Source: a virus
Length of the DNA: 30,253 bases
Strand: one strand, 5' to 3'
IMG/VR virus record: IMGVR_UViG_3300034104_003105
Location: 1 to 30,253 of that record
The number at the start of each line of letters is the position of its first letter. The stretch's first letter is position 1. Shown here one piece after another: positions 3,138-29,279 of this stretch. Made by a program: the position numbers and the translations under genes. Below the pieces are notes generated by a model. The model did no database searches. It was not told the origin of the DNA and was given only the letters and a program-made list of their open reading frames with translations.

Positions 3138-3907
3138 AGTTAGGTGTAAGTTATAATGTATTTGATGGTGAAGAACTATTAGAAGGGTCAATAAAACAAA
3201 TAAGGTCTGAAGTTGATTATATAAGTGTTGTATATCAAACCGTTTCAAACTTTGGGAATAAGTGTGATGATAATTTAATTCCTCTTTTAGAAGACTTAAA
3301 AAATAGAAATTTAATTGATGAAATTTATGAGTATAAACCTACGGTACATAATGGTAGTGGAAATGAAATAAATAAAAGAAATATTGGTTTAGAACTTTCT
3401 AAAAAAAATGGATGTACTCATCATATGTCAATGGATACGGATGAGTACTATGATACAGAACAATTTAAATTTTTAAAGAAAATTGTATTTGATAATAATT
3501 ACGATTCTTCCGCTTGTCAAATGGTTACGTACTATAAAGAACCAATATACCGATTAGAACCAAAAGAAACTTATTATGTATCATTAATTTATAAAATTAG
3601 AGAGGGGATTTATTTTAATAATGTTGGTTTTCCTGTTTTAGTTGACCCAACAAGAAGAATGAATTGTGGTAATTGTAAATTATTTACAAGAAATGAGATT
3701 GAGATGCACCATTTAAGTTATGTAAGAAAAAACATTTCAAAAAAAATGAACAATTCTTCAGCTAAAATTAATTTTCAAAATGCAATTCCAATGCTTACCG
3801 AATATTTTAATAATTGGGAATTTGGTAAAAAAGCTTTAATGCCTGGGAGACCACCAAGAGAGTTTGATATAGTACAAACTGAAAATAAATTTAATATTAA
3901 TTTATAA
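3134..3907 (+). CDS. Glycosyltransferase-like protein (GT-A fold, DxD)
   Basis: The 257-residue protein starts with a beta-strand pattern typical of GT-A enzymes (MKLGVSYNVFDGEELLEGSI), has a mid-region alternating alpha/beta pattern, and a clear metal-binding D-T-D at residues 101-103 in the stretch SMDTDEYYD. It resembles GT2-like or GT92-like enzymes but cannot be placed precisely. A Cys pair (MNCGNCKLF) near residue 177-182 is unusual. It lies inside the glycan operon with ATGA coupling to the upstream two-domain transferase, and its stop overlaps the start of a very small ORF (TAATG). The predicted role is transfer of a sugar to a cell-surface or virion glycan; the substrate is unknown. 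Confidence 0.72.
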   Translation: MKLGVSYNVFDGEELLEGSIKQIRSEVDYISVVYQTVSNFGNKCDDNLIPLLEDLKNRNLIDEIYEYKPTVHNGSGNEINKRNIGLELSKKNGCTHHMSMDTDEYYDTEQFKFLKKIVFDNNYDSSACQMVTYYKEPIYRLEPKETYYVSLIYKIREGIYFNNVGFPVLVDPTRRMNCGNCKLFTRNEIEMHHLSYVRKNISKKMNNSSAKINFQNAIPMLTEYFNNWEFGKKALMPGRPPREFDIVQTENKFNINL

Positions 3908-4020
3908 TGTCAGGTATAGTAATTTATTCTTCTTTTTTTCCTAATGAAGAACAACTAGTTTTTTATTGTGGTGAAGGACCAGGAAACGTATGGGGTGGTA
4001 TTGGTTTAATTATAAAATAA
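3907..4020 (+). CDS. Possible 37-residue microprotein
   Basis: An ATG that overlaps the previous stop (TAATG, same coupling as at 1012 and 11749) opens a 37-codon frame ending in TAA at 4018-4020. It fills almost all of an otherwise empty 125-base gap between two glycosyltransferase genes in an operon where gaps are nearly absent. The protein is hydrophobic at both ends with a Gly-rich tail (GEGPGNVWGGIGLIIK). No family is recognised. The coupling and the gap filling argue for a real gene; the short length and lack of homology evidence argue for caution. It might instead be the remnant of a longer gene. Confidence 0.4.
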   Translation: MSGIVIYSSFFPNEEQLVFYCGEGPGNVWGGIGLIIK

Positions 4021-4032
4021 AAATATATAACA

Positions 4033-4713
4033 ATGGAAAAAAAATTTAAACTATTAGTTAAATTCCCAACAAGAGGGAGGAAAGATCTTTTTTTTGAAGT
4101 TCTTGATAAATATTATGAATTTTTGGACGATCTTGACAACACAATATTCGTTGTAACTTGTGATTTAGACGATACCGAAATGAATAACGAATCTGTAATA
4201 AAAAAATTAGAAAATTATAAAAATTTATTTTTTTATTTTGGTGATTCTAAAACAAAAATAGAAGCGGTTAATAAAGATTTAGATAAACATGATGATTATG
4301 ATATTATATTGTTGGCATCTGATGATATGATACCTCAAATTCAAGGTTACGATAAAATAATCAGGGACAATATGAATGAACATTATCCAGACACTGATGG
4401 GGTTTTATGGTTCTATGATGGTTATCGTAGAGATTTAAACACCCTTAGTATTTTAGGTAAAAAATATTACGATAGATTCAATTATATTTACCATCCTAGT
4501 TATGTCTCTTTTTATGCTGATAATGAGTTTATGTTAGTCGCTAAAAACTTAAACAAACAAACATATTTCAACTATTGTATAATTAAACATTTTCATCCGG
4601 ACATTACAAAAGATGTTCATAGTGAGTATGATGAAACTTATAAAAAAAATAATGTAAGTGGTGATCAAAAAATTTACAAAGAAAGGTTAATAAACAATTT
4701 TAATATAAAATAA
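4033..4713 (+). CDS. Glycosyltransferase-like protein (GT-A fold)
   Basis: The 226-residue protein opens with a strand-loop pattern of GT-A enzymes (KLLVKFPTRGRKDLFFEVL). It has a predicted nucleotide-sugar site in the middle, where ILLASDDMIPQ (residues 92-102) supplies the acidic pair (D97, D98) that usually binds the metal and diphosphate. The C-terminal part contains several His and Asp residues (IIKHFHPDITKDVHSEYDE) that often shape the acceptor side. It is shorter than the canonical GT2 catalytic core plus extension. It is followed after 2 bases by a FkbM-type methyltransferase gene, so glycan synthesis and methylation seem to be co-expressed. The specificity is unknown. Confidence 0.68.
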   Translation: MEKKFKLLVKFPTRGRKDLFFEVLDKYYEFLDDLDNTIFVVTCDLDDTEMNNESVIKKLENYKNLFFYFGDSKTKIEAVNKDLDKHDDYDIILLASDDMIPQIQGYDKIIRDNMNEHYPDTDGVLWFYDGYRRDLNTLSILGKKYYDRFNYIYHPSYVSFYADNEFMLVAKNLNKQTYFNYCIIKHFHPDITKDVHSEYDETYKKNNVSGDQKIYKERLINNFNIK

Positions 4714-4715
4714 AA

Positions 4716-5345
4716 ATGTATTACGGACAAAATAACGAAGACAAAATAATCAATGATTATATTTTGGAAAAACACGGACCAGATTATATTGGTACTGTTT
4801 TAGAAATTGGTGCAAATGATGGAATAACCCTTAGTAACTCAAAATTTTTTAGGGATCTTGGTTGGCAAGGTTTTTTAATTGAAGCAGGGAAAAAACCTTT
4901 TGATAAACTAGTTGAAAACGTTTTAGGAAATAGTAAATGTTATAACGTTGCATTGGGTTCTGAAAATTGTAAATTGAAATTTTATGAAAGTGGTGACCTT
5001 CTTGGATTAAGGGATACGGGGTTAGTGTCAACTCTTATTATGGATGAAACTATTAGGTGGAGACGTAGTGGTGTTACCTTTGAAGAACACGAGGTAGATT
5101 GTTTAACTTGGAATTCTTTTTTAGAAAAATACAATCTTACAGAACAAAGTTTTAATATAATTAGTATTGATATTGAAGGAATGGATTATATAGTTCTTAA
5201 TCAAATTGATTTAAATAAAGTAAACTGTGAGGTTGTTTGTGTTGAGTTTAATGGTAAACAAAAAGACCTTTTTGTTGATTATTGCCAAAAATTCAATATG
5301 AATTTAATACACCAAAACGGTGAAAACTTAATTTTTGTAAAATAA
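4716..5345 (+). CDS. FkbM family SAM-dependent methyltransferase
   Basis: The 209-residue protein has the FkbM layout. An N-terminal YGQNNEDKII stretch is typical of the family. The SAM-binding motif I is VLEIGANDG at 28-36, followed by a loop FLIEAGKKPF that replaces the usual 'EP(x)' ribose-binding strand. Near the C-terminus is the family's signature SIDIEGMDY (150-158) before the last beta-strands. FkbM-type enzymes O-methylate sugars and polyketide-like hydroxyls, and in phage and capsule clusters they normally modify glycans. The flanking glycosyltransferases support a glycan substrate here. It is separated from the next FkbM gene by 40 bases that hold an imperfect 30-base direct repeat. 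Confidence 0.88.
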   Translation: MYYGQNNEDKIINDYILEKHGPDYIGTVLEIGANDGITLSNSKFFRDLGWQGFLIEAGKKPFDKLVENVLGNSKCYNVALGSENCKLKFYESGDLLGLRDTGLVSTLIMDETIRWRRSGVTFEEHEVDCLTWNSFLEKYNLTEQSFNIISIDIEGMDYIVLNQIDLNKVNCEVVCVEFNGKQKDLFVDYCQKFNMNLIHQNGENLIFVK

Positions 5346-5405
5346 TAATAAAATAAAACCACACAAATATTTAAATAATAATAAAATGAACCCACACAAA
5401 TCTTT
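5343..5405 (+). repeat. Imperfect tandem duplication spanning the start of the second FkbM gene
   Basis: Bases 5343-5372 and 5376-5405 are two copies of a 30-base unit with a 33-base period, matching at 27 of 30 positions. Both copies contain TAATAATAAAAT followed by CCACACAAAT. In the right copy the unit contains the ATG (5386-5388) of the downstream methyltransferase gene; in the left copy the matching triplet is ATA and lies in frame 11 codons upstream with no stop between. The unit therefore looks like a duplicated ribosome-binding and start region. Confidence 0.85.
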
Positions 5406-6318
5406 AATAGAAAAACTAAATTCTAAAAACTATAACACATCTGAAAAAACGTATGACGAGGACTTTTATACGGACAATGTTTTTGACTTATTAGAAGACG
5501 AATCAATAAATAACTTAAAAGGAGGAGTTAATAGTCCATTGGATAATTTTAATAGATTTAAAGATATTATATCTGACCCAAACAATTTGTTTATTAATAG
5601 AGTAGATAACGCCGGTACCGTTGAAAACGGGACTATTACTTTACATAATGGTATAAAACTTAGTACTGAATATTACGGTAACTTTATTGAGATATTAAAA
5701 TATAATTTAGGTGTTCACGAACCATCCGAAGAACGAGCGTTTCAAAAAGTTTTAACTAAACTAGACAAAGGTTCTATTATGATTGAATTAGGTAGTTACT
5801 GGTCAATGTACTCAATATGGTTTATGAAAACAATTGAAGATTCAATCTCCTACTGTATTGAACCTGACGCTAATAATATGAGAGTTGGAATTAAAAATTT
5901 TGAAATTAACGAATTAAAACCAAATTTTATACAAGGCAAAATTTCTAAATCCGATTTTAACCCACTAACGTTCTTTTTAAAAAATAATTTAGAAAAAATA
6001 GATATATTACATAGTGACATTCAAGGATATGAGGTAGAGATGTTGGATATGATACAACCTTATCTTTCTGAAAAAAAAATAAAATATTTATTTATCAGTA
6101 CACACAGTAATCCACTTCACTATGAGTGTATTTCTTTTTTAAAAAAAAATGGGTATAAAATTTTATGTTCGTGTGATTTTGATAACGAATCTTTTCAGTA
6201 TGATGGTTTTATACTATCTTGTCCAGATAACTTATATGAGATTGATAAATTTAAAATCGGTAACAGAAGTAAAACTGAGTTAATTAGTGATCAAGAATTA
6301 AATAAAATAATTAAATAA
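5386..6318 (+). CDS. FkbM-like methyltransferase with N-terminal extension
   Basis: The 310-residue protein has a FkbM-type Rossmann core at about residues 115-285: SAM motif I equivalent IMIELGSYWSMYS (131-143), acidic ribose-binding strand end at EPD (159-161), and the FkbM-like HSDIQGYEVEML (209-220). Motif I is degenerate: the usual Gly-rich loop (GxNxG) is replaced by GSYWS. That keeps the fold but makes activity uncertain. The first ~110 residues are an extra domain with no recognised family. It probably methylates a glycan like its neighbour. The ATG lies in the right copy of a local duplication, so a start 11 codons further left at ATA is conceivable but less likely. Confidence 0.78.
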   Translation: MNPHKSLIEKLNSKNYNTSEKTYDEDFYTDNVFDLLEDESINNLKGGVNSPLDNFNRFKDIISDPNNLFINRVDNAGTVENGTITLHNGIKLSTEYYGNFIEILKYNLGVHEPSEERAFQKVLTKLDKGSIMIELGSYWSMYSIWFMKTIEDSISYCIEPDANNMRVGIKNFEINELKPNFIQGKISKSDFNPLTFFLKNNLEKIDILHSDIQGYEVEMLDMIQPYLSEKKIKYLFISTHSNPLHYECISFLKKNGYKILCSCDFDNESFQYDGFILSCPDNLYEIDKFKIGNRSKTELISDQELNKIIK

Positions 6319-6323
6319 AATTT

Positions 6324-7241
6324 GTGAATAACAAAATATTAATTACGGGAGGTAACGGTTTAGTTGGGTCTGAATTTATTGGAGAACAATATATTAAACC
6401 AACCTCAAAAGAATATAATTTAATAAATAAAAATGATGTAAATCGTCTTATGTTGAAAGGTTTTGATGGTGTTATCCATTGTGCGGCAAAAGTTGGTGGG
6501 GTAGGTAGTAATATGAACTATAAAGGTGAGTTTTTCTACGATAATATTATGATGAATACTAACGTTATTGAGGCATCAAGATTGTCAAATGTAAAAAATT
6601 TAGTTTCATTTTTATCTACGTGCATTTTTCCTAATCAAGTTGAGTATCCTCTTACTGAAAAAAAAATACATTTAGGTCCCCCACATTTTTCAAATGACGC
6701 ATATGCATACGCAAAAAGAATGGCGGATGTACAAATTAGAGCATATAAAGAACAATATGGTTTAAATTATAAGTCAGTAATACCTTGTAACATATATGGC
6801 CCTAACGACAATTATGATATTGTTAATGGTCACGTATTACCTTCGTTAATTCATAAATGTTTTTTAGCAAAAAAAAACAAAACTCCACTCACAATATGGG
6901 GGTCAGGAAAACCATTAAGAGAGTTTATATTTAGTAAAGATGTTGCTAAACTAACTGAGTGGGTTTTATATAATTACAATGAAAATGAACCAATCATATT
7001 GTCCACATCTGAAGAGATATCTATTAAAGATGTTGTAGATATGATTATTGAAATAATGAATTTTAAAGGGGAGGTTATATTTGATTCAACTAAACCTGAC
7101 GGACAATTTAGAAAACCATCAGACAATTCCAAAATAAAACATTATTTACCTAATTTTAAATTCACACCTTTTTATGATGGGCTAAAAGAAACTATTGAAT
7201 ATTTTGAAAACTATTATAATATTGTAAGAAAAAATGGGTAA
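6324..7241 (+). CDS. fcl: GDP-L-fucose synthase
   Basis: This enzyme is the 3,5-epimerase and 4-reductase that converts GDP-4-keto-6-deoxy-D-mannose to GDP-L-fucose using NADPH. The 305-residue extended SDR protein has the nucleotide-binding GGNGLVG (9-15), the family signature AAKVGGVGSN (54-63), catalytic S98 and the Y127-x3-K131 pair, plus GSGKPLREFIFSKDVA, which is diagnostic of fucose synthases. The start is GTG at 6324, 5 bases after the previous stop; no better ATG lies near. It overlaps gmd by 8 bases, so the two enzymes of the pathway are translationally coupled, here with fcl first. Length and motifs are complete, so it should be active. Confidence 0.93.
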   Translation: MNNKILITGGNGLVGSEFIGEQYIKPTSKEYNLINKNDVNRLMLKGFDGVIHCAAKVGGVGSNMNYKGEFFYDNIMMNTNVIEASRLSNVKNLVSFLSTCIFPNQVEYPLTEKKIHLGPPHFSNDAYAYAKRMADVQIRAYKEQYGLNYKSVIPCNIYGPNDNYDIVNGHVLPSLIHKCFLAKKNKTPLTIWGSGKPLREFIFSKDVAKLTEWVLYNYNENEPIILSTSEEISIKDVVDMIIEIMNFKGEVIFDSTKPDGQFRKPSDNSKIKHYLPNFKFTPFYDGLKETIEYFENYYNIVRKNG

Positions 7242-8217
7242 AAAAATTGCATTAATTACCGGTATTAACGGTCAAGACGGATCATATCTTGCGGAACTAC
7301 TTTTAGAAAAAGAATATGAAGTATGGGGAACCGTAAAAAGAAATTCTGTATCCGAAACTCAATCATCAAGAATAGAATCATTAAGAGACGGAAATTTAAT
7401 AAATTTAGAATATGCCGATTTAACAGATATGGCATCACTTGTTAGAATTTTATCTAAAATCCAACCAGATGAGGTTTATAACTTAGCGGCACAATCCCAC
7501 GTAAGAATTAGTTTTGACCAACCTATTTATACCGCAAATGCAACAGGTGTCGGAACTTTAAATCTTTTAGAAGCAATTAGAATGGTATCACCACACTCTA
7601 AAGTATACCAAGCATCTTCTTCTGAAATGTTTGGCAATTCAATTGACGACGACGGTTACCAAAGAGAGACAACACCAATGAATCCTGTATCACCATACGG
7701 ATGCGCTAAAGTGTTTTCATACAATATCTGTAGAAATTATAGAAATTCTTATGGTATAAAAATTTGGAATGGGATTTTATTCAATCACGAATCACCAAGA
7801 CGAGGAACAAACTTTGTAACTAATAAAGTTGTTAAAGCGGCAGTTAGGATTAGTTTAGGATTACAAGATAAACTACATATTGGTAATTTATCCGCAACAC
7901 GGGATTGGGGTCACGCTAAAGATTATGTTTACGCAATGTGGTTAATGTTACAATCGGATAAACCAGATGATTACGTATGTTCAACAGGTAAATCCCATTC
8001 AGTAAAAGATTTGTGTGAATATGTGTTTAGCTCTTTGGGATTAGATTATTTAAAATATATTGTTGTTGATGAAAAACACTTTAGACCTGAAGAATTGGAA
8101 AATTTAAAAGGTGACTCAACAAAATTAAGAAAAGAACTTTTATGGGAACCTAAGTACACTTTTGAAACCATGTTAGATGAGATGATAGAGTTTTGGGTTA
8201 ATCATTTTAAAAAATAA
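7234..8217 (+). CDS. gmd: GDP-mannose 4,6-dehydratase
   Basis: It converts GDP-D-mannose to GDP-4-keto-6-deoxymannose, the substrate of the adjacent fucose synthase. Visible features of this extended SDR are TGINGQDGSYL at residues 9-19 (NADP-binding), NLAAQSHV (83-90), the catalytic region SSSEMFG (128-134), Y155-x3-K159 in SPYGCAKV, and the gmd signature NHESPRRGTNFVT (184-196) followed by NLSATRDWGHAKDYV. At 327 residues it is slightly shorter than typical 340-370-residue enzymes but lacks no key motif. Its start overlaps fcl by 8 bases. Phage copies of gmd are known from cyanophages. GDP-mannose itself must come from the host, as no mannose-activating enzymes are seen in the window. Confidence 0.95.
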   Translation: MGKKIALITGINGQDGSYLAELLLEKEYEVWGTVKRNSVSETQSSRIESLRDGNLINLEYADLTDMASLVRILSKIQPDEVYNLAAQSHVRISFDQPIYTANATGVGTLNLLEAIRMVSPHSKVYQASSSEMFGNSIDDDGYQRETTPMNPVSPYGCAKVFSYNICRNYRNSYGIKIWNGILFNHESPRRGTNFVTNKVVKAAVRISLGLQDKLHIGNLSATRDWGHAKDYVYAMWLMLQSDKPDDYVCSTGKSHSVKDLCEYVFSSLGLDYLKYIVVDEKHFRPEELENLKGDSTKLRKELLWEPKYTFETMLDEMIEFWVNHFKK

Positions 8218-18019: not shown

Positions 18020-18640
18020 ATGGCAAATTACCTAATACAAACTTGTGATGGAGTAACAAGTTTAATTGTTGACCCAAACGGAAACACTATAAATATTGGT
18101 TCAAAATATTTTTTCACATTTACAGGTGAAACATTACCAATTTGTGGTGAGGTAATTAGTGAAGATTCTGGATTAATAAATGAGACATTAAATACCGTAA
18201 CTTTATATTCCAACTGTTTAGAATGTTTAGAAAGTGAAGGATTTTCAGCAACATTAGCATCATGTAATGATGAATTTATTTATCCTCAAACATTAAATGA
18301 ATTTCCTAACTTACCTATAGTTGGTGAATATTACAGATTTTGTGATTCTGAAGGTGGTGGACTTTGTTTTTGTTTTGAATTTGTAAGTTTTACATATGAA
18401 CCAGGATTACCGGCAGTTTATAATGGTGGACCTTTTTTAAATTGTGATTGTCAACAAGAACCACCAAGAAGTGCGAATACCGAAACATTAGTTTGTGCAA
18501 TTTGTTGTGATTGTGGTGCGACCGGATCAACAGTAACACAAGTAAGTCCTCCACATCCAGTATGGACTGATGGTTATGGAACTCAAGTAACTCAATTAAA
18601 TATGATTACACTAGGCGGACCTAATGGGTTAAATAATTAA
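18020..18640 (+). CDS. Small Cys-rich fibre-like protein (two four-Cys modules plus shared C-terminal module)
   Basis: The 206-residue protein consists of two copies of a four-cysteine module (about 1-72 with C9, C42, C66, C69; about 73-147 with C82, C118 and a C142-x-C144 variant) and a C-terminal module (148-206) with a CxxCCxC cluster. The C-terminal module is 52/59 identical to the end of the next, 922-residue protein. No signal peptide, membrane segment or enzyme motif is visible. By position in the late block it is probably a virion appendage component (short fibre or fibre adapter). The shared end suggests that both proteins bind the same partner or trimerise by the same element. Cysteines may form disulfides or bind metal. 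Confidence 0.72.
   Translation: MANYLIQTCDGVTSLIVDPNGNTINIGSKYFFTFTGETLPICGEVISEDSGLINETLNTVTLYSNCLECLESEGFSATLASCNDEFIYPQTLNEFPNLPIVGEYYRFCDSEGGGLCFCFEFVSFTYEPGLPAVYNGGPFLNCDCQQEPPRSANTETLVCAICCDCGATGSTVTQVSPPHPVWTDGYGTQVTQLNMITLGGPNGLNN
18461..18640 (+). repeat. Shared C-terminal module, copy 1
   Basis: This 180-base segment, including the stop codon, encodes residues 148-206 of the small Cys-rich protein. It pairs with 21248-21427 at 158 of 180 bases. Of 60 codons, 40 are identical, 13 differ synonymously and 7 change the residue. Confidence 0.93.
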
Positions 18641-18658: not shown

Positions 18659-21427
18659 ATGGCATTAGATAACGCGACTTACTGTCAAGGTGAAAATAGA
18701 CCACTATCAGTAAATTTTAACGGAAACATACCCTCAATTGGTGAAGTGTGGAATACTTTAAACATAATCTCACTTGAGGAACCCGTACCATATTGTGTAA
18801 CAATAACAACTGGAGTTACAGAAGTTACTAGTACAACGTTATTAACCACACAATATACTGATTGTTATGATTGTATGTCAAATAATTATGGTGTTGTTGT
18901 GGTAACAGATTGTATTGGTGGTGACATTAGGGGGAATCAATATTTTCTAACATTAGAAAGTTTTGGTTTTTTACCAACAATTGATGCTACGTATTATTTA
19001 ACATTTTTAATATCAAGTCCTAGAGGGTCTAATTTAATTACAACTTGTGTTACTGTTAATAGACGGGGGGGTATTCAGCAACTTACGGAAAATGAATATA
19101 ATAGTGGTGTCGCTAACGGACAAATAGGTGTAGTACAAATAGTACCAACATTAGAAACTGATTGTCAAGACTGTTTATCTGGTAACTCACTTTCTTATGA
19201 AGTTCAAAGATGTACAGATGGTGAAACAGATTACGTGTTATTAATAAATGATAGTTTTATAGATCATATTATAGCATACTCAGATGGAGTTAACGAATAT
19301 TGTGGAACTGTAGTTGGATTAGGTACCGGTGGTTTTCCATTTACATTTATTAATGATTATGGTTTAGGTGGTGACGGTGGTAGTGCAACTTGTGATGACT
19401 GTCTTGCAACTGAAAATCAAAAAGTATTACTACAAAGTTGTACTGACTCTGAATATACTGAAGTTGTTTGGGCAGCAAGTTTATTTGGGACTGGTGATAT
19501 ATCAAATTTATCAACCGATAGTGGTTGTTTTATAGTTTCTGGTTTAACAGACGCCGAAGTAACAATTAATAATTATTTAAACTTTGATCCACAACCAGGG
19601 TGTGAACCTTGTATTGAGTGTAATGGTATTGTTTATTCTTATGAAACTTGTTATGGTGCTTCTGGATTTACAGAACAAGGCTTTATTGGTTTTGGTAGCG
19701 AAAGTGAACAACCTTTAGCTGTTGGTTATAATCCAGACACGCAACATATGTATGTTACAACACAATCAACAAGAATGATTGTTATTGATCCGTCAACAAA
19801 CACAGAAGTTACAAGATATGCAATACCTGGTGGGGGCGTTAGAGATATATTGTATTATAATACAGATTTGATGTATCTAACAAGAACTAATCCTATGGGT
19901 GGAATAATCGGATTAGACACTTCTGGTACTATTTCAGGAACAACGACAGCATACGGTTTAGGTAGTGTCTCTTTTCAAGTAGAAGGTGATTTACCAAATA
20001 ATAGATTATTTATTACTTGTAGTGATTATTCCGTAAAAATATTTGATACAAATACAAATACAGTTACATCCTCAATCTCAACAGTAAGTGGTTACCTTGA
20101 ACAATTTTTAGCTTACGACCCAATAAACAATGAAATCTACACAACCGCAAGTGGTTATTATACCGCTGAAGTTTATGATGTTTCAACATTAGCTCACGTA
20201 CAATCAATTGGGTTAACAGATGGTGCATATGATATTGCTTATGAACCAAATAGTGGTAATATGTATGTTACTTGTAGTGGTTATTATAATATAAAAGTAA
20301 TTGATACAAACACAAAAACAGTTATTAAAACAATTAATACAATAGAAAACCCAGGAAAAATAAGATATAATAGTACTGATGGTTATATGTATGTAACAAC
20401 AGACAGTGGTTTGTTAATTATTAACCCATTAATAGATGAAATAGTAGTACAAACAACTGGTTTAGGTGGCTCAATGTGTTGTTTTGGTTTTGATTTTTAT
20501 GATTTAAATAATAGACCATACGTTAATACAAATAATTATGCTGGTGATGACGGTTTAAGGTATTTTGAACTTCAAAACAATGGTACACAAAGTGGTTATA
20601 TAGAATCGTACCAATATTTACCAAGTAATTCAGTTTTTTACAATCCAGCAATTGATGAATGTTGTAATATTACTGGAACAGCATCTGGATATGTTGGTGA
20701 TGACACATTATATAGTGTTGAAACCTTTGAAGATTGTACTGATTGTGAAAATAATGTAGATGTTGTTATTTGGAACGCTTCAGCTTGTACAAACTCAAAT
20801 ACATATAGTAGTATTTATGTTACGACGGACAGTACAGCACAAATTGGTGATGTTGTTAAATTAATGTGGGGCTCAAACGAGTGGATTTGTGCTGGTCTTA
20901 TTAATACGGCCAGTTTTTACAGTGGTGGTTATACATATTACAATACACAAAAAAATGGACTTGGTTCAACATTAATTTATGATAGTTGTGAAACTTGTAA
21001 CTCACAAGGATTAATTGGTGTTACATTAGTTAATTGTGATACCCTTGTTGAATCTTTTGTTAGCATAACACTTGATAATTACTTGTCAGTTTATAATTTT
21101 GGTTCATTAACAAATTATAGTGTTAAAGGTTCTAATGGTAGTTGTTATCAAATAACAAATCTTTGTCCAATACCTTTAGAAGAACAAGGATTTACTGCGG
21201 TTGAGTTTTATTTTAATTGTACATTTTGTGAATCATCAGATGTAAATCCACCAAGAAGTGCAAATACCGAATCATTTGTTTGTGTAATTTGTTGCGATTG
21301 TGGTGCAACCGGATCAACAATAACACAAGTAAGCCCACCGCATCCAGTATGGAGTGATGGTTATGGAACACCAGTAACACAATTAAATATGATTACACTT
21401 GGTGGTATGAACGGATTAAATAATTAA
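18659..21427 (+). CDS. Large Cys-rich tail fibre/adhesin candidate with inserted YVTN-type beta-propeller
   Basis: The 922-residue protein consists of seven copies of a four-Cys module, each reading C, ~30-45 residues, C, ~25-35 residues, CxxC. CxxC pairs sit at 69/72, 169/172, 245/248, 315/318, 693/696, 777/780 and 854/857. Module five is split by a ~310-residue insertion (about 348-655) with repeats of the YVTN beta-propeller type: PDTQHMYVTT...VIDPSTNTEV, NNRLFITCSD...IFDTNTNTV, NNEIYTTASG...VYDVSTLAHV, SGNMYVTCSG...VIDTNTKTVI and DGYMYVTTDS. The last 59 residues equal the upstream protein's tail. This looks like a virion receptor-binding or adhesive protein; beta-propellers often bind glycans or proteins. 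The assignment as a fibre is inferred from position and architecture. Confidence 0.75.
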   Translation: MALDNATYCQGENRPLSVNFNGNIPSIGEVWNTLNIISLEEPVPYCVTITTGVTEVTSTTLLTTQYTDCYDCMSNNYGVVVVTDCIGGDIRGNQYFLTLESFGFLPTIDATYYLTFLISSPRGSNLITTCVTVNRRGGIQQLTENEYNSGVANGQIGVVQIVPTLETDCQDCLSGNSLSYEVQRCTDGETDYVLLINDSFIDHIIAYSDGVNEYCGTVVGLGTGGFPFTFINDYGLGGDGGSATCDDCLATENQKVLLQSCTDSEYTEVVWAASLFGTGDISNLSTDSGCFIVSGLTDAEVTINNYLNFDPQPGCEPCIECNGIVYSYETCYGASGFTEQGFIGFGSESEQPLAVGYNPDTQHMYVTTQSTRMIVIDPSTNTEVTRYAIPGGGVRDILYYNTDLMYLTRTNPMGGIIGLDTSGTISGTTTAYGLGSVSFQVEGDLPNNRLFITCSDYSVKIFDTNTNTVTSSISTVSGYLEQFLAYDPINNEIYTTASGYYTAEVYDVSTLAHVQSIGLTDGAYDIAYEPNSGNMYVTCSGYYNIKVIDTNTKTVIKTINTIENPGKIRYNSTDGYMYVTTDSGLLIINPLIDEIVVQTTGLGGSMCCFGFDFYDLNNRPYVNTNNYAGDDGLRYFELQNNGTQSGYIESYQYLPSNSVFYNPAIDECCNITGTASGYVGDDTLYSVETFEDCTDCENNVDVVIWNASACTNSNTYSSIYVTTDSTAQIGDVVKLMWGSNEWICAGLINTASFYSGGYTYYNTQKNGLGSTLIYDSCETCNSQGLIGVTLVNCDTLVESFVSITLDNYLSVYNFGSLTNYSVKGSNGSCYQITNLCPIPLEEQGFTAVEFYFNCTFCESSDVNPPRSANTESFVCVICCDCGATGSTITQVSPPHPVWSDGYGTPVTQLNMITLGGMNGLNN
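21248..21427 (+). repeat. Shared C-terminal module, copy 2
   Basis: This segment encodes residues 864-922 of the large fibre-like protein, with Cys residues C875, C878, C879 and C881 and the conserved run GYGTPVTQLNMITLGGMNGL. It differs from copy 1 at 22 of 180 bases, mostly at third codon positions, which indicates selection on the protein. Confidence 0.93.
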
Positions 21428-22561: not shown

Positions 22562-23431
22562 TTCCTTTTTGGTTTTATATGATGTCATAACTGGTTTTTG
22601 TCCCTTACCTCTTTGTGGGTCATTTTTCTCAGCTTTTCTTTTTTGTTGACAAGCTGCTTTTTTTTGTGATGGTGACATTTTACCAGCAACACCTGCTGCT
22701 CTACATTTAGGGTATGAACCAGTGTCAGCATCTTTTCTACCACAAGGTGGGTGTTTACCATCAACCTTTCTACAAATATCAACCCAAGGCCCTTTTGGTT
22801 GTGATGAACCTTTTGGTTTTTTCTTTTTACCAAACCATACCGCAAGATCTTCACTTATTGTATGAACTGGATGTGTTTCGTCTTTTAATTTTTTAAAAAA
22901 TTCAAAACCCTTATAATATTTATCACTTTTTTTATTATTTTTTACATTAGTTTTTTTTGCGTGATGATTTGTATGATGGTCAACTTCATAATCAAAAGGT
23001 GATAATGATGTCTTTGGCCATTTTTTTAAACCTAAAGTAAATGGTGCATTAAATTCTCCAGCAGTAACGGCTGAATTAGCTTCATTTATTGGAACAATTT
23101 TTTTATTCTTTCCTGGTGTTGGATTTATGTTATTACCATCATCATCACTTGTAAAAACATCTGGATGGTTTTTCATATAATTTGTAATTTTTTTTGCTGT
23201 ATTCTCTATTTTTTTTATTTTGTTCTTTGGTGTGTCCATTTTTCCATCATAACTATCATATTCTAATTCTGGGGAATCATATTTTGAGACTTGTATATTG
23301 TATGGTCCGTTTTCTGAATTTTTAAATTTTCTTATACCTTTAACTAAAGGTCCAAAATACGAACCCCTACTACCAGTACTAGTTGCAGTTGCCTCTCTTA
23401 TTATTTCTTTTATTCGTTTAGAACTTATCAT
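22508..23431 (-). CDS. Putative head protein with DUF5872-like C-terminal domain
   Basis: The 307-residue protein is basic overall. Its N-terminus (MISSKRIKEI, then I11-R12-E13|A14) resembles a capsid-targeting leader with a prohead-protease site. A second site, I115-N116-E117|A118, is followed by a stretch similar in layout to that after the first (both E-A, Ser/Thr/Gly-rich, then a G...P-type run and K-rich helix). Residues 216-275 form a Cys-containing Lys-rich domain (WVDICRKVDGKHPPCGRK... YPKCRAAG... KKAACQQKRKAE) that resembles DUF5872, a small domain found on many T4-like phage proteins. I infer a DNA-associated internal head protein. It lies convergent to the plus gene at its 3' end. 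Confidence 0.68.
   Translation of the reverse strand: MISSKRIKEIIREATATSTGSRGSYFGPLVKGIRKFKNSENGPYNIQVSKYDSPELEYDSYDGKMDTPKNKIKKIENTAKKITNYMKNHPDVFTSDDDGNNINPTPGKNKKIVPINEANSAVTAGEFNAPFTLGLKKWPKTSLSPFDYEVDHHTNHHAKKTNVKNNKKSDKYYKGFEFFKKLKDETHPVHTISEDLAVWFGKKKKPKGSSQPKGPWVDICRKVDGKHPPCGRKDADTGSYPKCRAAGVAGKMSPSQKKAACQQKRKAEKNDPQRGKGQKPVMTSYKTKKESIDSLVGRIISEIRNSF
22548..22576 (+). terminator. Rho-independent terminator overlapping a stop codon
   Basis: AAGGAATC (22548-22555), loop AATT, GATTCCTT (22560-22567) form a perfect 8-bp stem, followed by TTT, GG and TTTT. The TGA stop of the plus gene (22559-22561) falls in the loop and first arm. The same bases encode part of the C-terminus of the convergent minus-strand gene. 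Confidence 0.7.
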
Positions 23432-23435
23432 TTAT

Positions 23436-23443
23436 TATAAATA
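23436..23443 (+). promoter_or_regulatory. Exact T4 late-promoter box TATAAATA
   Basis: TATAAATA lies 9 bases before the ATG at 23453. The spacing equals that at 12494-12501, and if the start site is 5-6 bases downstream the mRNA would be almost leaderless. It lies in the 21-base gap between divergent genes. It is a candidate only, because the region is AT-rich. Confidence 0.42.
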
Positions 23444-23452
23444 TCTTAAATT

Positions 23453-23668
23453 ATGGAAAACACAAATACTAACTTTGGTAATTTATTTGGTGAAATAAAT
23501 TTAATTAGTGAAGATCATTTAGATGCTATTTTATCAACAATGGATAAAGAACATGCCATTTACTATCTTATTGAATCTGTAAAAGCTGCATACAAAAGGG
23601 GTGCCTTTACAATTGGTGAAACTGAAGTTATATCAAAATCAATTAGAGTAATTTCTTCCAATCCATAA
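23453..23668 (+). CDS. Small conserved-type phage protein
   Basis: The 71-residue protein is helical and acidic at the start (NLFGEINLISEDHLDAILSTMD), then has AIYYLIESVKAAYKRGAFTIGETEVISKSIRV. This resembles short hypothetical proteins of T4-like phages, but no function is known to me. It is divergent from the DUF5872-like gene and has an exact TATAAATA box upstream. Its 3' end overlaps the convergent membrane-protein gene by 30 bases, where a hairpin includes its stop codon. The isolated plus-strand position inside a minus-strand region suggests insertion or rearrangement of this stretch. Confidence 0.7.
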   Translation: MENTNTNFGNLFGEINLISEDHLDAILSTMDKEHAIYYLIESVKAAYKRGAFTIGETEVISKSIRVISSNP

Positions 23669-24109
23669 TGTGTACAACATTATGTGCATATGATAGAATA
23701 CCAAACATACTATTGCCCAAGTTTCCATCCAGAAAAATCCCCCATTTAATAGAAAAAATAATGATAAAAGATATAGTGGGACATAGAATTTAAATTTTTT
23801 AAGTGACAACATAGATATTCCAGACATAACAAAAAAACTAACTGCCAGAACATTATGTAATATAAACCAATTCTCAACTGAAAAAACCGTTAAAAGTAAT
23901 AAAAGTATTGCTGGTATTCTCCACTTTGGTAAATCAAAGAAGAAATAACTAACAAGAGCGTTTGTAAAAATAAATAAAGGTTGTAATTGTGTCGTCCAAG
24001 ATTGTGATATTGAGACTAAATCACCACAAAAAAAATAAATAATAAAAGGTTGTAATACCGCTAAAACACATGTAAATATCCTTTTAATTATATCAAATTT
24101 TTCTATCAT
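23639..24109 (-). CDS. Polytopic membrane protein, coupled to the T9SS-type protein gene
   Basis: The 156-residue protein has about five or six hydrophobic segments: near 10-30 (IFTCVLAVLQPFIIYFFCGDL), 44-58, 67-82 (IPAILLLLLTVFSV), 86-102 (LAVSFFVMSGISML), 106-124 and 130-146. Loops are short and basic on one side (KKFKFY). No signature of a holin, transporter or secretion component is recognised. Its ATG overlaps the stop of the 817-residue T9SS-type protein by 4 bases (ATGA), so the two are translated together and may work together at the cell envelope, for example as an envelope anchor or immunity-like partner. Its 3' end overlaps the small plus-strand gene. Confidence 0.72.
   Translation of the reverse strand: MIEKFDIIKRIFTCVLAVLQPFIIYFFCGDLVSISQSWTTQLQPLFIFTNALVSYFFFDLPKWRIPAILLLLLTVFSVENWFILHNVLAVSFFVMSGISMLSLKKFKFYVPLYLLSLFFLLNGGFFWMETWAIVCLVFYHMHIMLYTLWIGRNYSN
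23664..23684. terminator. Hairpin at a convergent gene junction
   Basis: CATAATGT (23664-23671), loop GTACA, ACATTATG (23677-23684) is a perfect 8-bp stem that contains the TAA stop of the plus gene at 23666-23668 and lies in the coding end of the minus gene. No T-run follows on either strand, so termination is uncertain; transcript-end protection is an alternative. Confidence 0.4.
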
Positions 24110-26559
24110 CTAATTATTCTCTTCATAGTTCCATCTTCATAAATTTCAAATAACACACCTTTATAATTTTCATTTATTTCTTGACCTAATAAGTTTACAA
24201 ATTTAATTACTTTTTTATTTGAATAATTCCCTTCAATTACAATCGGTCCATAAATTTCAAACTTACCATCAATATCATATTGTAATAGTCTGTAATAGAC
24301 ATTATTTTGATTGATATAACTATCTAAATGTGAGTAATTAATTTTTGTTTGACTGTTGCCTGCGGCAGTTTTATTAGCAATAAATTTCCAAATTTCACCG
24401 TCTTCACTCCTTTCAATATCAAAGTGTGAAGAATTTTGTTCAGAAGCTGTGGCCCACTTTAGACTATTGAATGTTTTATATTTTGTACCTTCAAAGTATA
24501 AAAGTTCAACTGGTAAAGGTTGTGGTGATGTGACTGAAATACCAAAAGTTCCGGTTGTTCCACCGCCATATTCCCAAACACGAATATAAATTGTTTCATA
24601 CGGAAAGAAATCTGCTCTAGAAATAAATGACATTAAACCATTCGGTGAACTATCATCATCACATTGTATTTCTACTAATGAACCAATTGTACCTCTATAG
24701 ATTGCCATACCTGCATCTGTAATTCCACCAATTTGTGTGTCAAAATCCAATGATGTTACATATTGTGGTAATGTAACTTTAAACCAAACATCTTCCCCGG
24801 TATATGAAGCACAACTTGGTGTTGTTTCAGTTAGTGTATTTGTCGCGTTTATATTAGTATACGTTACATATGTAACTGTATTTGATATAGTTAATTCAAT
24901 AGCTCCACTTGGATTATCGTTAATTGGTGGTACTGGAGGTGCGGTACAAGTTCTAGATATTGTAAATGTTCCAGTTGAAGTACTACTTGTTAAGTAATGT
25001 GCGACATAAATATAATACTGAACACCCACCGTTGTAGTAAATGTATATGTTTCAGTTGTGAACGAATTATCAATGTTATTTATATAACTTAATCCACTAC
25101 AAGATCCGGACATAAATAATAAACTGTGGTCAAATGTAGCTGTTGATGTAATTGTTGTTTGTTGACCGTCACCCGCAAAAGTATACCAAACACCATAATT
25201 AGATGATAATGAAAATGGGGCTGTCTCAAGTATTGTCCCCACCGTTGTACCAGCTAATGAACTAGTACCACAAGAAACACTTACCGCACCAGAACAATAA
25301 TCATTTACTGGTGGAGGTGTTGGTGATGTTGAGCTAGTAGACGCATTCCAGGAACTATACGTTCCCCCACAATTACTTCTAACGTATAATGTATATGTTG
25401 TATTTTGAGTTAATGATGAGGTAGATGCCGATGTAACTCCCGCACCAACACTACCACTAGCAGTTAAACCGGTTGCACCACTACCTCCTAATCCGGAAGT
25501 TCTTATTTCCCATTCATATCCATTTGTCGGTAATGATGGTGATGCCGTCCAAGATAAGTTAGCGGATGTTGGTGATGTGTAAGTTACTAATAATGATGAT
25601 GGAGCAACACAAGATGGGGGCGTCCAAGTGTAAGTTAATCCGGTTGTTGGTTTAACCGTACTTGAAAGTGTTACAGTTGAGCTATTTAATGTTCCTGCGG
25701 TTGTTGACGACCAATTTGTGGTACTTGTTCTATTATTGAAATTAGTATTTGATGAACCTCTTAAACCAATTTCAAATGTTCTTGCGGTTGCACTTGTTGG
25801 TCCTTGTATATTATAAACAATATCTATTATATTAGTAGTTTCATTTAATCTTATCTGAAAATTATATAATTCACCAAAAACCCCTAATGTAGTAAATCTT
25901 TGCCATCCTGTCCACTGAACAACTAATGTCCTATTTGGTGCTGTACCTATTGTTTGAAATCTAATACCAGATCCCGACCTACTAAATCTAAAATGAAATC
26001 CTGTACAATTACTAGGAGGGCTTGGGATACAAGTACTTGTTGCGTTTGCAGAAATTGTAACAGTTGTTGCCGTTTTTGATAATACAGTCGCTCCTGCAGG
26101 AATACCAGTACCACTTACTTTATCACCAACTGATATTTGGTTTATATCTCCTCCAATAATCGTTATTACAGGACTACCTGATGTTCTATTTGCTAATAAT
26201 GAACCACGACCTATTAAATCGGCACCCATTGCAGAAATAACATTATTTGACGTACCAGTTGATAGTGGTAAATAACTATTAGTAGGTAAAGCGCCTAATG
26301 TTATAAATCCATTGGTGTTAACAGCAAATTGAGTATATGTTGTCCCGTTATAAACAAAATTAAACCCAATTGATTCTAATGCTGTTGAGTTATAATCATC
26401 TAAAAAATTTGTGTTTGTCCAACTTGTAAAGTTGTCATAGTTTGCACCACCAGTTATTGGTGTGTAAGTACCAGTTGATGTTGCGAATGTATACGAACTA
26501 ACTTGTGTAAAACCCAAAAAAGAAATTAGGGTAAATAGTAAGATTAAAAAACTTTTCAT
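24106..26559 (-). CDS. Secreted multidomain protein with T9SS type A sorting domain
   Basis: The 817-residue protein has a Sec signal peptide at 1-19 (MKSFLILLFTLISFLGFTQ), a beta-sandwich region (20-310), a fibronectin III-like domain (about 316-411, CVAPSSLLVTYTSPTSANLSW...YVRSNCGG), two PPC-like jelly-roll domains (about 418-540 and 545-680), the Bacteroidota-typical PLPVELLYFEG...SLKWATASEQNS...FDIERSEDG segment (681-778), and a type A T9SS sorting domain (782-817: VIKFVNLLGQEI...GVLFEIYEDGTMKRI). It should be exported by the host T9SS to the cell surface or medium. This is host-like content inside a phage structural region, so a surface-altering or adhesive role during infection is inferred. 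A membrane protein gene follows with ATGA overlap. Confidence 0.9.
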   Translation of the reverse strand: MKSFLILLFTLISFLGFTQVSSYTFATSTGTYTPITGGANYDNFTSWTNTNFLDDYNSTALESIGFNFVYNGTTYTQFAVNTNGFITLGALPTNSYLPLSTGTSNNVISAMGADLIGRGSLLANRTSGSPVITIIGGDINQISVGDKVSGTGIPAGATVLSKTATTVTISANATSTCIPSPPSNCTGFHFRFSRSGSGIRFQTIGTAPNRTLVVQWTGWQRFTTLGVFGELYNFQIRLNETTNIIDIVYNIQGPTSATARTFEIGLRGSSNTNFNNRTSTTNWSSTTAGTLNSSTVTLSSTVKPTTGLTYTWTPPSCVAPSSLLVTYTSPTSANLSWTASPSLPTNGYEWEIRTSGLGGSGATGLTASGSVGAGVTSASTSSLTQNTTYTLYVRSNCGGTYSSWNASTSSTSPTPPPVNDYCSGAVSVSCGTSSLAGTTVGTILETAPFSLSSNYGVWYTFAGDGQQTTITSTATFDHSLLFMSGSCSGLSYINNIDNSFTTETYTFTTTVGVQYYIYVAHYLTSSTSTGTFTISRTCTAPPVPPINDNPSGAIELTISNTVTYVTYTNINATNTLTETTPSCASYTGEDVWFKVTLPQYVTSLDFDTQIGGITDAGMAIYRGTIGSLVEIQCDDDSSPNGLMSFISRADFFPYETIYIRVWEYGGGTTGTFGISVTSPQPLPVELLYFEGTKYKTFNSLKWATASEQNSSHFDIERSEDGEIWKFIANKTAAGNSQTKINYSHLDSYINQNNVYYRLLQYDIDGKFEIYGPIVIEGNYSNKKVIKFVNLLGQEINENYKGVLFEIYEDGTMKRIIR

Positions 26560-26560
26560 A

Positions 26561-26588
26561 ATTAAGTATTTTTTCTTAATAAATACTT
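26561..26588 (-). repeat. Two mutually exclusive hairpins in the leader of the T9SS-type gene
   Basis: AAGTATTT (26564-26571) pairs with AAATACTT (26581-26588), and ATTAAG (26561-26566) pairs with CTTAAT (26575-26580). The first arms overlap, so only one hairpin can form at a time. They lie directly before the start codon at 26559 and could expose or mask it. The region is AT-rich, so chance is possible. No other feature is clear between 26560 and 26646. Confidence 0.35.
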
Positions 26589-26646
26589 TGAAAAAGTTTA
26601 ATTATAAAGTAAATTTTGTGTCAAATGAACATTTAGTGGTGATAGA

Positions 26647-27324
26647 TTATAATTTGTTTGATTTACGGATATTTTCTTTACCCCATAATGGTTGAAGGTT
26701 TTCTAATGACCAACAAGACATAAATTCTTTATCACCAATTTCTGTTATTTGAAATGACGATATTGGTTTTATGTGGTCTACGTGCCACTCACCATAATTA
26801 TTCCAAGTCATATTATCTTTAAATTTACTCTCTAAATGCTCTATTAGATTTTCTGGCGAATATTTTAGTGTCTCAAAGTAGTGACCATTTTTTTGAATTT
26901 GGTTTTCTTTTAATACTTGATATATTGCGGTTCTGAAATTATTGATTAGTTTATAGATGGGGTCGTTCGCTTTACGAGTTCTTTCGTAGTTTCTTTTATT
27001 TTCTCTATGTTTATCAATATTTTTTTCTCTCCATTCTTTGTGGTATTTAATTAAATGTTCTTTTTTATTTTCAGACCATTTTTTATGATATTCACTTAAT
27101 GTATCTTTATTTTTTTCACGATATTTTTTGTCCGCTAATTTTTTTCCACCTATAAATCTTCTTCCAGAAGAACCAACTTTAACACCATTTTCTTTTAATA
27201 TCCGTAATACAATATTTTGATTTAAATGTATTTTTTCTGATATTGTTTTTGAACCTAATAATTCTTCATTATACATTTTAAGTATTAAATCAATAGTTTC
27301 TTGTGTTGGAACGTATTTCTTCAT
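26647..27324 (-). CDS. HNH endonuclease (probable free-standing homing endonuclease)
   Basis: The 225-residue protein has an N-terminal helix-turn-helix-like part (about 5-50, TIDLILKMYNEELLGSKTISEKIHLNQNIVLRIL), a Lys-rich helical linker with repeated YHKKWSENK / YHKEWREKN / YERTRKAND units (70-120), and a C-terminal HNH core: EWHVDHIKPISSF (179-191, with H181, D183 and H184), then SLENLQPLWGKENIRKSN (206-223, with N209 and N218). This is the typical form of phage HNH endonucleases that spread by cutting an empty target. It is placed between the major capsid gene and the T9SS-type gene on the same strand. Its start codon overlaps a TATTTATAAATA palindrome (27324-27335). Confidence 0.85.
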   Translation of the reverse strand: MKKYVPTQETIDLILKMYNEELLGSKTISEKIHLNQNIVLRILKENGVKVGSSGRRFIGGKKLADKKYREKNKDTLSEYHKKWSENKKEHLIKYHKEWREKNIDKHRENKRNYERTRKANDPIYKLINNFRTAIYQVLKENQIQKNGHYFETLKYSPENLIEHLESKFKDNMTWNNYGEWHVDHIKPISSFQITEIGDKEFMSCWSLENLQPLWGKENIRKSNKL

Positions 27325-27380
27325 ATTTATAAATATAATAAACTATGATAAAAAATCTATTATTTATTTAAAATAAATAA

Positions 27381-27406
27381 AAAAGGTCAGATTTCTCCGA
27401 CCTTTT
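27381..27406 (-). terminator. Rho-independent terminator of the major capsid gene
   Basis: On the minus strand AAAAGGTC, a 10-base loop, GACCTTTT is followed by TTATTTATTT. Plus-strand arms are 27381-27388 and 27399-27406. It lies 23 bases after the capsid stop codon and would end the head-gene transcript before the HNH gene. The rest of the 27325-27428 gap is AT-rich with no gene. Confidence 0.85.
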
Positions 27407-27428
27407 CCTTATATTTTTAAGATTTTGA

Positions 27429-29279
27429 TTATCTCAATTCTCTTAAATCAAATGTACGAACACCATCAACAGTAATTCTCGCATAGAAGCGGTTGTTCAC
27501 CATTTTTTTCGCATATCTCGTCATTATACCTTTGATAGGTGTAAAGTTGAACGGGTTATACATTGTAGGTGTTAATTGTAGAGGTACATACGGTGCGTAG
27601 ATGTAACCTGTGTCAAGTAAAGACGTTCCTTTGTGACCCAACAAAACTTGGTTTGGTGGGAAATAAGGGTCTCTATACACTTGGTAACGACCAGCTAATG
27701 TTCCTACTCTTTCAATACCCATATTGTATTGATCTTGCTCAGGTGAAGCGTTAGATACGTGGAAGTACTCTAAGTCATCAAAGATAGCAGAAACCTCAGA
27801 AGAAACAACAATCCAGTTTGCACCACCTCTCAAAGTAGATTTGTGGATTTGTGCAGACAATTGGTTGATTGCTGTAATCAAAGTTTGGTTCCAGTCTTTT
27901 TGAGTATAAGAAGTTGTTAAGTTCAATCTTCTCCATCCGTTGTAATCCCAACGTAAGTTCCAAGCAGCACCTTTTCTAAGGTCTCTTAAGATTTCACGGT
28001 CAATTTCCGCAGCAACTTGCTCAGACAATAAAGCTGTTAATTCAGCCTCAGCGTCAATGTTATGGAATGCCGCAACATCTTGTGCAAGTTCTGGAGACCA
28101 TTGAGCTCTTAGTTTTCTTTCAGTTACAGAAACTGTTACTGACTCAAGATCAAATGATACTTCACCGATTTCATCTTGGAATTCTAAGTTTTCGTAAGTT
28201 CTATAAACAGCTGTAAACGCACTAGTTGTGAAAGTTTCGTCGTTAAGTGTTGTTCCAGTGTAACCATCAAGTGAGTCAGCACCACAACTAAAACATGCTG
28301 GACAAGAAAGATCAACTTCTAAATAGATACATCCTTCTGGTGTACAAATGTCATAGTACGAACCACCGTTTCCAGTTTCAGGGAAAGTTGTTGATGCTTG
28401 AGCACCGTAGTTAACAATTCCTTTACCGTATTGTTGAGTAACAACTCTGAATAAAAGTGGTTTACCAACAGTAGCTACATTACATGTATCAGCACTAGCA
28501 GTAATATCTGTGTTTGCAAAGATTTTAAGGTCAGAAAGGAAAGTTTCAGTGTCAACTTCATTTCCATCAGGACCAATTAATTTACCAGCACCATGAGATA
28601 AAGTTCTAAAATTACACAATCTTAAAAGAACTTTTCTTACATTACCTTGAGCAATATATGGGGCTGCGTTAACATCAAAACCACCATCAGCATTCCATAC
28701 AATAACATCAGTACTAGCTGTCACTGCAGACCATCTACCTTTTGAGTAGTCAAACAATCCTGGAGGATCCAAATCAGCTTCAGCACCTTCATAAAATAAA
28801 TCGTAAAGATTTTTCTTAAATGGAGCGTTTGCACTTGGTCCGTTATATCCTGGATAACCAGCACCAATTTCTTCAGGTACATCATAGTTACCTGGAGATC
28901 CGATTGGTGGGTAGTGTGAATTTGGTACAGCGTTAGGATTGTATCCTTGGATACGAGGTACAAAGTAGAACAATTTACCAATAGGTAAGTTCATTGCTTG
29001 TACAGAAACGATGTCATTAGCCAACAATTTAGAGAAAACTCTTCTTACGATTGGGAAAACAACTGTTTCAAAAGCTCCGTTAGAACCTTCTGAAGTCGCT
29101 TCGTTAATCAAGTGAGAAGCTTGGTTTTCATACAACTGCGCTACATTCTCTTTTAGGTGACCTTTAAGGCCTTCTAGGAACCCTAATCTGTCCCATTTGT
29201 TAATTGTGTCTTCTTTGATAACTTTAAGGTGTTTTAACCCAATGTTACCAACTAGACCTGATTCTAATAATGCTCCCAT
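27429..29279 (-). CDS. Major capsid protein, T4 gp23-like
   Basis: The 616-residue protein (T4 gp23 has 521) forms the hexamers of the head. Matches to gp23 are ENVAQLYENQASHLINEATSE (44-64), VSVQAMNLPIGKLFYF (91-106, cf. 'VQPMNSPTGQVFAL'), SVTVSVTERKLRAQWSPELA (380-399), AEIDREIL (424-431) and the end region AGRYQVYRDPYF...LLGHKGTSLLDTGYIYAPYVPLQLTP (529-571). A prohead-protease site I58-N59-E60|A61 fits the T4 cut at E65|A66. Residues about 260-345 are an insertion with five of the protein's seven Cys (C312, C317, C326, C329, C332), not present in gp23. Upstream is the prohead core gene, in the same order as T4 gp22-gp23. Confidence 0.93.
   Translation of the reverse strand: MGALLESGLVGNIGLKHLKVIKEDTINKWDRLGFLEGLKGHLKENVAQLYENQASHLINEATSEGSNGAFETVVFPIVRRVFSKLLANDIVSVQAMNLPIGKLFYFVPRIQGYNPNAVPNSHYPPIGSPGNYDVPEEIGAGYPGYNGPSANAPFKKNLYDLFYEGAEADLDPPGLFDYSKGRWSAVTASTDVIVWNADGGFDVNAAPYIAQGNVRKVLLRLCNFRTLSHGAGKLIGPDGNEVDTETFLSDLKIFANTDITASADTCNVATVGKPLLFRVVTQQYGKGIVNYGAQASTTFPETGNGGSYYDICTPEGCIYLEVDLSCPACFSCGADSLDGYTGTTLNDETFTTSAFTAVYRTYENLEFQDEIGEVSFDLESVTVSVTERKLRAQWSPELAQDVAAFHNIDAEAELTALLSEQVAAEIDREILRDLRKGAAWNLRWDYNGWRRLNLTTSYTQKDWNQTLITAINQLSAQIHKSTLRGGANWIVVSSEVSAIFDDLEYFHVSNASPEQDQYNMGIERVGTLAGRYQVYRDPYFPPNQVLLGHKGTSLLDTGYIYAPYVPLQLTPTMYNPFNFTPIKGIMTRYAKKMVNNRFYARITVDGVRTFDLRELR

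Follow-up and report, generated by a model that had tools for sequence, protein, structure and literature searches.

A capsid-side gene of a T4-like phage encodes a probable modular binding protein with a putative short type IX secretion signal of the Crocinitomicaceae kind

RESULTS

Gene content of the capsid-side locus

The window, i.e., the entire 30,253-nucleotide stretch of DNA that was analyzed, harbors at positions 24106 to 26559 an intact open reading frame of 817 amino acids, here referred to as the target. The preliminary description had given the correct coordinates, but the gene lies on the minus strand; the plus strand of this interval is stop rich. The locus comprises the following features, with the evidence for each:

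24106..26559, minus strand: target gene, 817-aa modular, putatively exported protein (open reading frame)
26506..26559, minus strand: predicted Sec signal peptide, residues 1-18, predicted cleavage ..FT/QV (sequence; AlphaFold helix 2-15; rule-based scan)
25612..26502, minus strand: N-terminal beta-rich module, residues 20-316 (same module in large secreted host-family proteins)
25336..25605, minus strand: fibronectin type III (fn3) domain, residues 319-408 (Pfam PF00041)
24652..24921, minus strand: galactose-binding/PPC-like beta domain, residues 547-636 (weak Pfam GBD_T9SS_assoc)
24235..24516, minus strand: PLPVEL module, residues 682-775 (hhalign; Ig-like strands in the AlphaFold model)
24109..24216, minus strand: short C-terminal tail, residues 782-817 (KKVIKFVNLLGQEINENYKGVLFEIYEDGTMKRIIR), proposed short C-terminal domain (CTD) of the type IX secretion system (T9SS) (hhalign, family genomes, model strands, CTD swap)
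27429..29279, minus strand: gp23 major capsid protein (MCP) gene, fixed upstream neighbor (Pfam Gp23, E 1.6e-73)
26647..27324, minus strand: endonuclease VII-like gene, optional neighbor in the exchanged island (phrog_1035, E 9e-14)
23639..24109, minus strand: gene for a 156-aa all-helical membrane protein (AlphaFold pLDDT 90; adjacent in many contigs)
23430..27420, unstranded: approximate island differing between the window and contig L181, with the endonuclease VII-like, target, and membrane protein genes (sliding identity)

Genes for a dUTPase, PhoH, a glycosyltransferase, and a GDP-mannose dehydratase, together with a weak baseplate OB match, indicate that the record is a phage. The proposed phage head context was confirmed by the gp23 MCP gene (phrog_138, E 5e-67), the second gene upstream of the target, and judged from this gp23-type protein the phage is T4-like. 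Glycosyltransferase, methyltransferase-like, and nucleotide-sugar genes form a block at positions 1626 to 8217 (GDP-mannose 4,6-dehydratase, E 4e-121), the products of which could alter the sugars of the cell surface or serve to decorate the phage.

The membrane protein gene is located directly downstream of the target and overlaps its stop codon by 4 bases; no relative of its product was found in Pfam, PHROG, PADLOC, or PDB. It adjoins the target family in many contigs, including L141 and L178, in whose vicinity gp23 was not seen. Since it follows the target family there even outside the capsid synteny, the two genes seem to form a functional pair, and the membrane protein is a candidate partner or immunity-type protein.

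Domain architecture of the target

The N terminus MKSFLILLFTLISFLGFTQ/VSSY is typical of a Bacteroidota Sec signal peptide, as originally proposed. By a rough criterion (K/R, hydrophobic core, xQ), such a peptide is predicted for 55 of the 58 distinct members of the family and, among the 31 open reading frames of the window, in one other product, the neighboring multi-pass membrane protein. The adjoining N-terminal module also directly follows the signal peptide in very large secreted proteins of the host family, to which its second half shows up to 59% identity. Residues ~120 to 195 have no counterpart in the host-family versions of the module; this missing segment (window ~25975-26200, ITGGDI..ISVGDKVSGTGIPAGATVLSKTATTVTISANATS) weakly resembles a stretch annotated as tail tubular protein A of Xanthomonas phage PBR31 (E 5e-3).

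The two beta domains suggested in the preliminary description were recovered in part. The fn3 domain matches Pfam PF00041 with an E value of 7e-5, but its 23.3 bits are slightly under the 25-bit cut-off, and the PPC-like domain is weak in the target itself (GBD_T9SS_assoc, E 0.11) and passes the Pfam cut-off in homologue L168. GEVED and CUB, like GBD_T9SS_assoc, pass the Pfam cut-offs in homologues, which thus contain fn3, GEVED, CUB, or galactose-binding domains; those passing are non-catalytic, binding-type domains, and a catalytic domain was not detected. The PLPVEL-type segment was corroborated as a module, homologous to the one located before canonical CTDs in proteins of Bacteroidota (hhalign 100%, E 4e-47). 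The AlphaFold model of the whole protein is of moderate confidence (pLDDT 65.5, pTM 0.36), Foldseek returned generic Ig/fn3-type beta-sandwich chains (TM ~0.1) that give no hint of the function, and searches of solved structures with the tail and whole-protein profiles gave no relative (best E 0.2). Overall, the target gene looks, from its modules, like a mosaic of the host secretome.

A short conserved tail in place of a canonical CTD

A type A sorting domain as defined by TIGR04183, which had been assigned to residues 782 to 817, is not what lies there. The target matched TIGR04183 neither in the genome-level search nor in NCBIfam with the threshold relaxed to E ≤10, and the Pfam CTD models gave no match. 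We do not claim that the short tail and canonical CTDs are directly homologous, as their profile-profile comparison was not significant (hhalign probability 0.2-0.5%); the comparison of bacterial short tails with canonical CTDs was likewise not significant. Residues 782 to 817 instead represent a different conserved tail family, in which two features of the canonical 70- to 80-aa sandwich, its PNP start and its first strands, are lacking. The conserved signal is located at the extreme C terminus and contains motifs B, D, and E, defined according to PMC11969387 (alignment of the short-tail profile A3, NLLGQEV..G..fEvYeDGt.kKiIr). In the AlphaFold model, the tail forms a single three-stranded sheet (strands 784-788, 802-807, and 812-816; pLDDT about 82-89).

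Phage tails and bacterial short tails match each other (hhalign 99.2%, E 3e-18). The PLPVEL module is followed by the 36-residue tail in phages and by a canonical CTD of ~75-85 residues in most bacteria; one bacterial match with the short form was a metagenome-assembled genome of Fluviicola (L030), a member of the Crocinitomicaceae. Among 100 genomes of this family, 60 encode secreted proteins with the short tail (A3 profile matches at E ≤0.001), with at most 11 copies per genome, always terminal and 0-4 residues from the stop codon. SprA is present in 99 of the 100 genomes, including all tail-positive ones; G020 contains neither SprA nor the short tail. Genome G001 additionally has 64 TIGR04183 matches. 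Five short-tail genes are clustered on contig C58 of this Fluviicola genome (33-47 kb, loci L187-L194), a grouping which suggests that short-tail cargo genes were duplicated locally in the host. In a sample of 296 Bacteroidota genomes, 228 of which have SprA, the short tail occurred in the Fluviicola of L030 alone and was absent from the 295 others; with a tail confined to one family, its phylum-wide co-occurrence with SprA is uninformative. Based on shared domains, the host of the phage is probably a freshwater member of the Crocinitomicaceae.

Relatives of endonuclease I in the family end in different ways. The short tail is present in, e.g., L231-L234 and L239; L236 and L241, whose bodies are 64-66% identical to the query, have a canonical CTD; and L240, L243, and L245 are tail-free. 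The short tail hence occupies a position equivalent to that of the canonical CTD, as endonuclease I bodies and PLPVEL modules take either of them.

Recurrence of the locus and exchange of alleles

The whole protein has homologues at 27 IMG/VR loci, and for the C-terminal module the best 80 viral loci were considered. Among the contigs concerned, about 60 phage contigs other than the window, from many samples, have the target-family gene immediately behind gp22-like and gp23 genes, often followed by the membrane protein gene and a homologue of the gene at 22508. Misassembly of a host contig into a phage, named at the outset as a result that would speak against the proposal, is excluded by this recurrence: every target module resembles host proteins, but the gene occupies the same slot in ~60 independent contigs, and in L001 it is 100% identical and has neighbors in common. 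The probability of such an artefact is practically nil.

Outside the capsid synteny, a PHROG scan detected phage or phage-compatible genes in L124, L115, and L141 and nothing in L156. The search of cultured phages returned four matches, all from uncultured huge-phage records, including LR745206.1 (L028, 635 kb). This record contains, at L028:2688-4366, an open reading frame with the same short tail (EIYEDGSVKKKYISE), which looks frame-shifted from a signal-peptide PPC-type reading frame directly upstream. A second signal-peptide gene is located between gp23 and the target family in four contigs (L113:2754-4184, L133:2979-4433, L144:2409-3839, and L182:2764-4218); its product of 476-484 aa ends with ..LPGMYFIVDNNIIVKRIYKN, a CTD-like end.

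Between the window and L181, the MCP is 100% and the 22508 protein 99% identical, but the ectodomains share 37% identity. Sliding identity is mostly 98-100% outside the island and about 45-79% inside, with sharp edges. In 10 of 24 contig pairs with an MCP identity of ≥0.95, which are not independent of each other, the ectodomain identity is ≤0.38. Contig L001 represents the converse case, with a 100% identical target gene and an MCP of 80% identity. The signal peptide and the tail stay constant while the middle varies, and the signal peptide is kept in unrelated ectodomain alleles. The endonuclease VII-like gene, present in some contigs only, lies just inside the boundary of the exchanged island; its product might be a homing endonuclease and as such promote the exchange of cassettes.

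A second variable locus is the gene at 18659 to 21427, which diverges sharply from L181 from ~21,300 onward. It encodes a 922-aa beta-propeller-like protein, possibly an adhesin, whose C-terminal repeat (NTE.LVC.ICCDCGATGST..QVSPPHPVW.DGYGT.VTQLNMITLGG.NGLNN) is common to the shorter product of 18020 to 18640.

DISCUSSION

Probable export of the target

The target is probably a host-derived modular binding protein with an export route via Sec and the host T9SS. The phage would make the protein in the infected cell, the N-terminal signal peptide would direct it through Sec across the inner membrane, and the short C-terminal signal (residues 782-817) of the Crocinitomicaceae kind would then address it to the T9SS for passage across the outer membrane, with the cell surface or the medium as the end point. 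That the T9SS actually transports the target is considered highly probable, and the protein would presumably be displayed on the surface.

The preliminary description had expected the host T9SS to export the protein by means of a TIGR04183 domain, and had regarded a missing match to this profile as grounds for giving up the idea. Taken literally, the match is missing; the export idea is nevertheless kept, since the tail recurs on proteins of SprA-positive Crocinitomicaceae, replaces the CTD on the same bodies, and is modeled as a three-stranded sheet. These three observations, together with the minimal signal of HBP35, whose last 22 residues are sufficient (PMC5445135, PMC11285876), make it very probable that the short tail serves as a short T9SS signal specific to this lineage. 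A precedent is provided by the short CTDs of Prevotella intermedia, stated to be the sole species reported to have them, which comprise 40-51 aa with one three-stranded sheet and for which cleavage and glycosylation were shown (PMC11969387). They resemble the target tail in the three-strand topology, the motif order B, D (G-x-Y-like), and E (basic end), and the small B-D spacing, but represent a different sequence family and lineage, the target tail being found in Crocinitomicaceae and their phages. The TIGR04183/Por_Secre_tail type A CTD likewise ends PLPVEL-containing secreted proteins and is interchangeable with the short tail on endonuclease I, but the short tail lacks a match to its profile. 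We strongly infer recognition as a signal of the Crocinitomicaceae type; it is not extended to the T9SS in general, because the tail is absent from 295 sampled genomes although 228 of the 296 have SprA.

The missing TIGR04183 match and the nonsignificant hhalign comparison would also suit a protein that is exported by Sec without the T9SS and remains periplasmic or is released by lysis, the tail having another role, e.g., as a periplasmic or outer membrane binding motif; in addition, some endonuclease I relatives are entirely tail-free. This explanation is improbable in view of a short tail that takes the place of the canonical CTD on the same body, is always terminal, and is confined to SprA-positive genomes within the family, and short three-stranded CTDs are experimentally known from P. 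intermedia (PMC11969387). A late virion decoration or fiber protein, binding glycans from the particle like Ig-like capsid decorations and retaining a signal-peptide-like N terminus as an unused relic, would account for the position directly 3' of gp22-like and gp23 genes in ~60 contigs, which could suit a structural gene, for the Ig/fn3-type domain chain with its generic Foldseek matches, and for a hypervariable ectodomain as in adhesins. The signal peptide, which 55 of 58 distinct members possess and which is retained across unrelated ectodomain alleles, the tail common to secreted host proteins, and a PHROGs search of the target without any match to a virion-type family make a virion role very improbable.

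Possible function of the putatively exported protein

At the fixed capsid-side slot, the signal peptide, the PLPVEL module, and the tail would be kept while the ectodomain is exchanged as a cassette. In a phage of the lytic type, a gene close to late genes whose product has fixed export signals and a varying binding part fits a surface protein under rapid selection for specificity. Superinfection exclusion or receptor masking is the most economical use of such a protein and is proposed tentatively: on the infected cell and on neighboring cells, the exported target would bind receptors or surface glycans and thereby reduce the adsorption of competing phages. Phage T5 makes a receptor-masking protein of this kind, Llp, a small periplasm-facing lipoprotein that blocks adsorption at the outer surface. 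As a phage-made, exported adsorption blocker, Llp is analogous to the proposed role of the target in function only, since it has neither a T9SS route nor a modular ectodomain.

The main rival of an exclusion role assumes the same export but another use, in which the target alters aggregation, particle attachment, or polysaccharide binding and serves as an auxiliary gene for spread or nutrient capture. The ectodomains are indeed the binding types of adhesive secreted host proteins, and the glycosyltransferase and GDP-mannose dehydratase genes of the window could alter surface sugars; but the allele turnover between near-identical phages is more readily understood as arms-race specificity than as a general metabolic function, and no catalytic domain was detected. 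This use of the protein is regarded as only slightly less likely than exclusion. The exclusion role may be extended to the view that widespread T4-like phages of Crocinitomicaceae possess a combinatorial surface-display locus, a late cassette beside the capsid gene with a constant signal peptide borrowed from the host, a constant lineage-specific short T9SS signal, and swapped ectodomains, so that the allele of the resident phage would cover the host cell and keep competing phages out; in this full form, the proposal is a speculative one and rather unlikely.

Relation to known systems and implications

The preliminary description knew of no comparable system, but two had been reported already. 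Bellas et al. (2020; PMC7468147) described phage-encoded T9SS cargo in Cryophage, which is highly variable between near-identical phages. The proteins reported there to have a type A sorting domain are an endoglucanase, a GH39, and a PA14 protein, and the authors proposed a hijack of the host T9SS, possibly for superinfection exclusion. The target shares with this cargo the presence of a T9SS sorting signal on a phage protein and the variability between near-identical phages, and it is set apart, going by the description of Cryophage, by its short non-TIGR04183 tail, the T4-like capsid-side slot, and binding-type domains only. In gut phages, BACON reading frames with T9SS sorting domains near head genes were mentioned in passing without a functional analysis (PMC6949934); they resemble the target in that domains of a carbohydrate-binding type occur together with a T9SS sorting domain, in their case upstream of a head gene block, but they belong to another phage group and contain other domains. 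Phage-encoded T9SS cargo with an exclusion idea is accordingly not new. In the open-access literature searched, no paper on a Crocinitomicaceae phage and the T9SS was found; as far as these papers show, the new aspects are the family of short-tail signals and its restriction to Crocinitomicaceae and these phages, and also the fixed capsid-side slot with a quantified cassette exchange.

If the proposed export is true, phages use the outer membrane secretion machine of their host systematically as a display platform and not as a one-off, as the same slot is occupied in dozens of contigs and alleles are exchanged between otherwise near-identical phages. Short T9SS signals would then exist in a second, distant lineage beyond P. 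intermedia (PMC11969387). Since the short tail is invisible to TIGR04183, such proteins would be missed in secretome predictions for Crocinitomicaceae and their phages.
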